From: Halorarum salinum
GTDB taxonomy: Archaea > Halobacteriota > Halobacteria > Halobacteriales > Haloferacaceae
Assembly: GCF_013402875.1 (NCBI RefSeq)
Contig: NZ_CP058579.1
Location: 3,472,001 to 3,536,000 of the forward strand
Reading direction: 5' to 3'
Length of the DNA: 64,000 bases
Of the stretch, positions 56,483 to 58,117 are shown one piece after another. Made by a program: the position numbers and the translations under genes. The notes under the pieces are model-generated. The model made no database searches and was not told the origin of the DNA. It saw only the letters and a program-made list of their open reading frames with translations. Position 1 is the first letter of the stretch; every line of letters begins with the position of its first letter.

Positions 56483-57859
56483 ATGTCTGCGGCATCGCAC
56501 TCGTATGATATCGTCGTCGTCGGCGGCGGCACGGCGGGGGCTTTCGCCGCGGCGACGGCCGCCGACGAGGGCCTCGACGCGGTCATCGTCGAACGGAAGT
56601 CGGAGGCGGAGGCGGGCAACATCGCCTGCGGGGACGCCATCAAGGGGAAGTCGACGTTCCCGGACGTCGTCGACCTCGAGTACCTCAAGGACGAGTCGTT
56701 CACCAACCGGAGCATCCGGCGGGCGATCTTCGAGAACCCCCTCACCGGCGAGACCCTCGACGTGCCGTTCGGCGAGTCCGGCGCCGTGATCGACCGGAAG
56801 CGGTACGGCGAGATCATCCTCGAGGAGGCCGAACGCATCGGCGCCGACATCCACTACGACACGGTGGTCCAGGACGTGACCCAGGACGACGACGGCACCG
56901 TCACCGGCGTCCGCGCCAAGCGGAAGGGCGACGTCGTCCAGTACGACGCCGACCTCACCGTCGACGCCGCCGGCGCGCTCTCGATCCTCCAGGACAAGGG
57001 CGACTTCGGCGACGCCACCTTCGACACGAACGTCTCCTACTCGCAGTTCTGCTCCGCCTACCGCGAGGTCGTCGAGGTTCCCGAACCCGTCGACTACGAC
57101 GACGCCATCGTGTTCAAGCCGACCGAGGAGCTTGGCTATCTCTGGTACTTCCCGCGCACGAGCACCGAGATCAACGCCGGCCTCGGCTTCCAGATGACCG
57201 AGCCCCCGATGAAGCTCGTCGAGGTCCTCAAGGAGGACCTCCGAAGTCGCGCGGAGTTCGCCGGCGCGACGGTGAAGAACAAGCTCGGCGCCGCGCTCCC
57301 CACCCGCCGCCCGTACGACTCCGCGGTCGCGAACGGCTTCCTCGCGGTCGGCGACTCCGCGGGCCACGTCAACCCCACCACCGGCGGCGGCATCCCCGGC
57401 GCCGCGAAGTCCGCCCACTGGGCGGTGAAGCGCGCCGCGGAGGCCATCTCGGAGGGCGACACCTCCGAGGAGGCGCTGTGGGGGTACAACCGCGACGTGC
57501 TCACCGACTTCGGGAAGCGCTTCGCCGCGGTGGACCTGTACAACGTGTGGGGCACCGCCCACGACGTGGAGGAGCTGACGGGCATCGTGAGCTCCATCCC
57601 GGGCCAGCAGCTCGTCGACGCGATGAGCAAGGGCGAGGCCTCGATGGGGCTCGGCCTGAAGCTGAAGACCGCGTACAGGACGTTCGGCCACTGGGACGCG
57701 CTGTACGAACTGTGGCAGGTCCGCAGCAAGGCGGGCGAACTGAAGGACCACTACGACGAGTACCCCGAACACCCGGACGGCTTCGAGGCGTGGCGCGAGG
57801 CGCGCGACGCCATCATGGACGAGGTGTACGAGATCTCGGGCGCCGAGCCCAAGTACTGA
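56483..57859 (+). CDS. Geranylgeranyl reductase family flavoprotein
   Basis: Predicted 458 residues. It belongs to the digeranylgeranylglycerophospholipid reductase family, which saturates isoprenoid side chains of archaeal lipids using FAD. The dinucleotide motif VVVGGGTAGAFAA is near residue 11, the substrate-side IACGDAIKGKST near 47, the second FAD motif FLAVGDSAGHVNPTTGGGIP near 292, and the C-terminal domain follows. The length and layout are typical of haloarchaeal membrane-lipid reductases. It has a strong leaderless-type promoter and no coding partner. Confidence 0.93.
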   Translation: MSAASHSYDIVVVGGGTAGAFAAATAADEGLDAVIVERKSEAEAGNIACGDAIKGKSTFPDVVDLEYLKDESFTNRSIRRAIFENPLTGETLDVPFGESGAVIDRKRYGEIILEEAERIGADIHYDTVVQDVTQDDDGTVTGVRAKRKGDVVQYDADLTVDAAGALSILQDKGDFGDATFDTNVSYSQFCSAYREVVEVPEPVDYDDAIVFKPTEELGYLWYFPRTSTEINAGLGFQMTEPPMKLVEVLKEDLRSRAEFAGATVKNKLGAALPTRRPYDSAVANGFLAVGDSAGHVNPTTGGGIPGAAKSAHWAVKRAAEAISEGDTSEEALWGYNRDVLTDFGKRFAAVDLYNVWGTAHDVEELTGIVSSIPGQQLVDAMSKGEASMGLGLKLKTAYRTFGHWDALYELWQVRSKAGELKDHYDEYPEHPDGFEAWREARDAIMDEVYEISGAEPKY

Positions 57860-57860
57860 C

Positions 57861-58117
57861 GAACCTCCTTTGGCGGGGGCCTCCTCGCTCGGTCGCTTCG
57901 CTCCCTCGCTCGTCGACCCCCGCGAAGACCCGTTCATGCTGTGGGATTCCGGAGAAATCCCACTGCTGACGGGAGATCGAAGATTTCCCGTAATGCTGCC
58001 AGAACCCGTCGGTTTCTGGCCGCAAGACGAGCTTTGCTCGTCAGTGCCAAAACGCCGCTCGCTCGGTCGGCGGGGCTTCGCCCCGCCTCCCTCCCTCGCG
58101 GTGAGCCTGCTGGTGCC
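57861..58117. repeat. Intergenic stem-loop repeat, family A copy 2, expanded
   Basis: This is the inverse copy of 906-1060. It keeps the backbone: the AAAGGAGGTTC end (57861-57871), an outer 7-bp stem (57873-57879/57917-57923), CATGAACGGGT (57928-57938) and the 58045-58117 block with the GGCGGGGC-TTC-GCCCCGCC hairpin (58069-58087). At the point where copy 1 is continuous (TTTTGGCATGAACGGG) it carries about 105 extra bases with four further hairpins: 57941-57963, 57969-57991, 57998-58020 and 58026-58042. It begins 1 bp after the reductase stop. Confidence 0.85.

Follow-up and report, generated by a model that had tools for sequence, protein, structure and literature searches.

A composite palindromic repeat of haloarchaea, dispersed mostly behind stop codons, with a possible two-sided role at transcript ends

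Two intergenic regions near opposite ends of a 64,000-nt stretch of haloarchaeal DNA (the window, C1:3472001-3536000 of the 4.26-Mb host genome, G000) contain the same hairpin-rich sequence in opposite orientations, and one of the two copies holds four additional stem-loops at a single point. What kind of element is this, does it grow by taking up hairpins, and what might it do for the genes that it adjoins?

Two copies in the window and their family

The initial annotation had described the region as an intergenic repeat that grows by the insertion of stem-loop modules. Both copies were found where it had placed them, and alignment of the copies confirmed a shared block of 73/74 nt with one substitution and one indel. 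Copy 1 runs continuously through TTTTGGCA^TGAACGGG, without an insert; in copy 2, an insert flanked by GCA separates the two words and contains the four extra stem-loops at the coordinates that had been given. The insert measures 108 nt, not about 105 nt as first estimated. The loops are short, as had been noted, and the stems, several of which had been called perfect, were found to be near-perfect, the last one (58026-58042) being perfect. The element was also found to extend further than first read, since it includes a second major hairpin (hairpin B; 57861-57936 and 980-1060) in addition to the hairpin within the shared block (hairpin A). The parts of the two copies are as follows.

Copy 1
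906-921, + strand: outer flank, CACCAGC-type tail
922-968, + strand: hairpin A
972-979, + strand: junction word TTTTGGCA, followed directly by TGAACGGG, no modules
980-1060, + strand: hairpin B, with its outer end toward the 5′ part of a gene whose ATG lies near 1106

Copy 2
57857-57859, + strand: TGA stop codon of the abutting gene, read from the sequence, with hairpin B 1 nt away
57861-57936, - strand (the TGAACGGG strand): hairpin B, closed by a GAAC/GTTC base stem and containing tandem G.A pairs and a purine 3x3 internal loop
57937-58044, - strand: 108-nt insert between TTTTGGCA and TGAACGGG, made up of two two-hairpin modules
57941-57963, no strand assigned: module hairpin of the GTGGGATTTC stem type, in the module on the hairpin B side
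57969-57991, no strand assigned: module hairpin of the ACGGGAAATC stem type, in the module on the hairpin B side
57998-58020, no strand assigned: module hairpin of the GCCAGAAACC stem type, in the module on the hairpin A side
58026-58042, no strand assigned: module hairpin of the GACGAGC stem type, in the module on the hairpin A side
58045-58052, - strand: junction word TTTTGGCA
58055-58101, - strand: hairpin A, part of the block shared with copy 1 (73/74 nt), capped by a GAA loop and containing tandem G.A pairs
58102-58117, - strand: outer flank, CACCAGC-type tail

The gene abutted by copy 2 encodes an FAD-binding, geranylgeranyl-reductase-like oxidoreductase (Pfam PF01494 and related FAD families). 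The hairpin B end of copy 1 points toward a gene start rather than a stop codon, a minority arrangement that recurs in the orthologous copy of G002 (L090).

The two copies are members of a dispersed non-coding family with dozens of copies in the host genome and its relatives. The host probably belongs to Halobaculum, as 10 kb of its second contig is 86.6% identical, over 94%, to a plasmid of Halobaculum halophilum. In a blastn search of the whole genome, the 73/74-nt block shared by the two copies scored E = 2e-28, and 61 matches were obtained, far beyond chance; seven of the copies were long and had the same insert, and many others were short. With a covariance model of hairpin B, at least 26 distinct loci were detected in the host genome and at least 16 and at least 17 in two congeners. 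The family comprises at least 113 copies in 15 genomes from at least four haloarchaeal genera, all family counts being lower bounds set by the limits of scoring. All 113 copies from the 15 genomes were retrieved and set in one orientation for comparison.

The element matched no curated covariance model of Rfam 15 at gathering or relaxed thresholds. No match was obtained in a plasmid collection searched with the core element, or in viral contigs searched with the exact core. Among GTDB contigs, the exact core was matched in Halolamina rubra and in one Streptomyces contig only, the latter being taken as a chance hit. One Halolamina rubra copy (L101) contains two hairpins with quite different stems, similar linkers and the TGAACGGG core; another (L103) has no module hairpins, and its abutting gene matches ETF-alpha in related loci. 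A literature search for haloarchaeal REP or MITE hairpin families yielded nothing relevant, and no description of an archaeal family of such composite palindromic repeats was found in the literature searched.

Outer hairpins and hairpin-pair modules

On the TGAACGGG strand, the parts follow in the order CACCAGC-type flank, hairpin A, TTTTGGCA (in some genera TTTTGATCA instead), any modules present, TGAACGGGTTTTGC, hairpin B, and AAAAGAGGTTC. The base stem of hairpin B was perfectly paired in 103/113 copies, through covarying combinations (GAAC/GTTC in 80, CGAC/GTCG in 19, and CAAC/GTTG in four). The base stem is followed by a 3x3 internal loop of purines, beyond which a further stem carries as many as three tandem G.A pairs. 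In counts that pool related copies and ignore kinship, the mismatches of hairpin B were one-sided (A.G 522 versus C.T 46; G.G 259 versus C.C 17; G.U 157 versus A.C 66), and hairpin A was one-sided in the same way for A.G (267 versus 10), with no bias between G.U (47) and A.C (46). The modules showed nine G.U and 16 A.C mismatches. As G.U pairs are thus no more frequent than A.C in either hairpin A or the modules, RNA is not favoured over DNA structure in these parts. The tandem G.A pairs occur in 5′-CGAG contexts on one strand. T4 tracts in hairpin B were kept on both strands (99/113 copies have one in the sense direction of the abutting gene, and 96/113 on the opposite strand), and a T4 tract follows hairpin A in 83/96 copies.

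Three copies (L010, L013, and L074) have a hairpin B whose inner part runs in the opposite direction to its outer arms, a pattern that strand switching at an inverted repeat would produce. Four others (L063, L083, L125, and L148) contain extra module-like hairpins inside the loop of one of the two outer hairpins, B or A, indicating insertion points besides the junction.

Among the 103 copies scored, by class limits that admitted even hairpin numbers only (10 of the 113 copies were unclassed, and L063 and L089 were classed by eye), the junction held no hairpins in 60, two in 28, four in 13, six in one, and eight in one. Because the classes of the scoring script fit even numbers only, the evenness was established from an unconstrained listing of insert lengths. 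The lengths found there were about 55-59, 108-116, about 164-169, and 216 nt, corresponding to two, four, six (L063), and eight (L133) hairpins. No insert of three-hairpin length was present in this listing, and near the one-hairpin length there was only L025, a degenerate copy with a 27-nt insert in which no hairpin was detected. One module unit reads TNA-hairpin-NAGCAG-hairpin-CNNCA. The proposal that hairpins accrete at one point was upheld as to the point, at which module number varies, and amended as to the unit of change, which is the two-hairpin module and not the single hairpin. That the repeat "grows" presumed a direction; zero is the commonest state, and the differences in hairpin number may have arisen by gain, by loss, or by both.

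The stems of the modules vary between modules and genera yet stay paired, with pairing retained in 97.5% of cells and double changes at 9/13 pairs. In total, 68 double changes were counted, compared with 21 in shuffles, and 0/500 shuffles reached as high a number. The loop triplets were used equally in both orientations (TTC 15 and GAA 13; GGA 9 and TCC 8).

Arrays of four hairpins were also found outside the element (L077 and L094-L098, in G000 and G002), with the order GGTTCGA-hairpin-TCAGTA-hairpin-TCAGCAG-hairpin-GGCATCA-hairpin-GAACGAC. These free arrays have stem and linker words in common with the modules, and several are followed by GAGAGCCGCGGGGGCTTTCGAG-type sequence. Pieces of about 30 nt from one array (L096:1450-1690) recurred at 97-100% identity, in many families, when compared with 89 genomes of the order, indicating that some of the hairpin words are widespread in haloarchaea.

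Placement behind genes and concerted evolution

In 79/113 copies, an open reading frame of at least 80 aa has its stop codon within 5 nt of the hairpin B end, most often at +1 or -2, an adjacency that the initial annotation had missed. At the hairpin A end, a convergent stop codon was found within about 30 nt in 10/103 copies only. The gene beyond hairpin A is in tandem orientation in 60 cases and convergent in 51, and adjacency to the stop codon without preference for the orientation of the next gene points to an association with the transcript end of the abutting gene. Most tandem neighbours begin at a distance of 70-130 nt, a spacing that leaves room for a promoter. In convergent gene pairs, each gene may have its own inward-facing copy (L064, L079, L081, and L159). 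The abutting genes belong mainly to core metabolism, and include those for PorB, enoyl-CoA hydratase, an AAA ATPase, AFOR, PhoU, and CarA; a DP1-like polymerase subunit, ETF-alpha, a member of the arginase family, and GlnA are further examples.

Clustering of the abutting genes identified 22 sites common to two or more genomes, several of which span three or four genera. In G006, 8/9 copies abut genes whose orthologues in the genus of the window also have the element. The number of hairpins differs between species at 20/22 shared sites and, within the genus of the window, at 13/15; this variation, and the many copies with differing hairpin numbers at the same point that were recovered from the genome and its relatives, support modularity and reject the alternative that copy 1 is a simple deletion without variation elsewhere. 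At one site (L004), the element has four hairpins in G000 and two in G001, and is absent from G002, G004, G006, and G032; at another (L010), it has none in G000, two in G001, a remnant in G002, and the site is empty elsewhere. Many orthologous genes lack the element.

The copies were also found to evolve in concert, a second feature not recognised initially: sites persist across genera, and sequences are homogenised within each genome. Within the genus of the window, genes that abut a shared site have coding sequences with 79% identity, yet the hairpin B sequences of same-site copies (66.6% identical) are no closer to one another than to those found elsewhere in one genome (66.8%). In G000, module states 0 and 4 were each found with every pairing of the two main types of hairpin A and the two of hairpin B. 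Two sites of this genome have an identical 79-nt hairpin B, with the match ending after 8 nt on the left side and 4 nt on the right side. This reassortment and the short identical tract fit an exchange between copies in short tracts.

Relation to known repeats and possible function

The element is best regarded, by analogy, as an archaeal counterpart of the BOX and BIME composite interspersed palindromic elements, without a claim of membership among BOX, REP or MITE elements. BOX elements of Streptococcus pneumoniae (boxA-boxB(n)-boxC) are also composite, intergenic and made of stem-loops, with two outer parts and a middle module that is absent or multiple, and they sometimes supply a gene's stop codon (PMC3049150). 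The haloarchaeal element likewise has fixed outer parts, with 0, 2, 4, 6 or 8 hairpins at one point between hairpins A and B, a likeness in the plan of parts drawn without sequence alignment to pneumococcal BOX. It differs from BOX in being archaeal rather than bacterial, in having as its module a pair of hairpins whose stems covary and are not identical, in its much stricter placement behind the stop codon, and in having sites common to several genera. REP and BIME elements of enterobacteria and pseudomonads are also palindrome mosaics with conserved imperfections, lie mostly downstream of genes and reassort their parts, and some REPs touch stop codons (PMC3733652). Intergenic palindromes with conserved imperfections downstream of genes were found here as well; unlike REP and BIME, however, the element occurs in a few dozen copies rather than hundreds, and occupies long-lived orthologous sites. 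The Y1/RAYT transposase (PF01797) had no match in G000, and RAYT/IS200-type mobilisation was rejected on the basis of its absence from this genome.

The initial suggestion of a MITE-like element fits weakly. MITEs are also short, non-coding, dispersed and internally palindromic, but the outer ends of the element differ (ACGAACCTC versus CACCAGC), no terminal inverted repeats were seen, inspection by eye showed no duplication beside empty sites, no related transposase was found, and the sites are kept across genera. Archaeal intrinsic (T-stretch) and FttA/aCPSF1-dependent terminators resemble the element in having a T tract a few nucleotides past the stop codon, and the sense-strand T4 of 99/113 copies lies shortly past it. 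To our knowledge, the known archaeal terminators do not form large repeated families with hairpin modules.

The sense placement, the lack of bias toward either orientation of the next gene, the room for a promoter, and the T4 tracts on both strands suggest a two-sided transcript end (terminator or insulator) as the most likely role of this composite dispersed repeat, whose copies would be mosaics produced by recombination. We favour this reading tentatively, on sequence grounds. On the side of the abutting gene, the element would supply a U tract (CUCUUUU) about 10 nt past the stop codon. Convergent or antisense transcription arriving from the opposite side would meet the GC-rich hairpin A and its U4, the optional module hairpins, a second U4, and hairpin B. 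The number of modules may tune the strength of this barrier, and recombination or gene conversion, by swapping hairpin A, modules and hairpin B, would keep the copies of each genome alike. T stretches cause transcription termination in Haloferax volcanii (PMC7237163), and FttA prefers U-rich RNA (PMC11616081), the kind of target that the element's U tract would offer. Several observations speak against a terminator. The better-folding strand of hairpin B, with the favourable G.A and G.U pairs, serves the abutting gene as template, which leaves that gene's own mRNA with the weaker fold. The T4 tracts are short, the hairpin B side of copy 1 adjoins no stop codon, and many orthologues manage without the element. 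A standard promoter/terminator scan for hairpins followed by T tracts gave nothing above chance, with no site within copy 2 and a single weak one bordering copy 1.

The main rival reading, which we consider doubtful, is that of a selfish, non-autonomous BOX- or REPIN-like element that is tolerated behind stop codons as safe places, its modules being by-products of recombination or slippage at palindromes, with no gain to the host. The authors of the bacterial BOX study read BOX in this way (PMC3049150), and the empty sites and remnants, which indicate gain and loss, the homogenisation within genomes, and the equal orientations of the module loops, as replication or recombination at palindromes would give, agree with it. 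The occupation of the same gene ends across genera does not, nor do the nearly fixed orientation toward the stop codon, the conservation of T4 tracts and base-stem pairing, and the lack of a Y1 transposase in G000 and of visible terminal inverted repeats or target duplications. In another reading, sense-mRNA hairpins might stop 3′-to-5′ exonucleases, with more modules giving more protection, and such 3′ protection has been proposed for BOX elements at operon ends (PMC3049150). The sense placement directly past the stop codon and the covarying stems would suit such a stabiliser, which is nevertheless improbable, because the sense-strand folds of hairpins A and B are the weaker ones and a transcript ending at the U tract before hairpin B would lack the hairpins.

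The tandem G.A pairs in 5′-CGAG contexts on one strand, the inversions of loops and hairpins, and the absence of a G.U bias in hairpin A and the modules raise the prospect of a BIME-like element that acts as DNA, through purine-strand hairpins or cruciforms that affect the supercoiling between transcription units or bind a nucleoid protein; the lack of bias toward convergent gene pairs argues against this, and we regard it as quite improbable. A family of small non-coding RNAs, transcribed off the TGAACGGG strand and complementary to the abutting gene's 3′ end, would explain why pairing so strongly favours that strand. It appears highly improbable given that no Rfam match was obtained, that no promoter was identified with a scan not specific to archaeal promoters, and that tandem contexts offer no upstream gene on the TGAACGGG strand from which the element could be transcribed.

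Composite palindromic repeats are well studied in bacteria, and the present family provides an archaeal case. It offers natural experiments, in which the same gene end carries 0, 2, 4 or 6 hairpins in related species alongside empty sites, and these make it possible to test what keeps archaeal transcription units apart where the genome is GC-rich, and by what means short dispersed repeats become homogenised between sites. The fuller proposition, that the element is a haloarchaeal gene-end device with its strength set by the number of hairpin pairs, its sites long kept, and its sequence rewritten from other copies, is possible, though somewhat unlikely. If it is true, the same gene ends would hold the device over long evolutionary time despite continual rewriting from sister copies.
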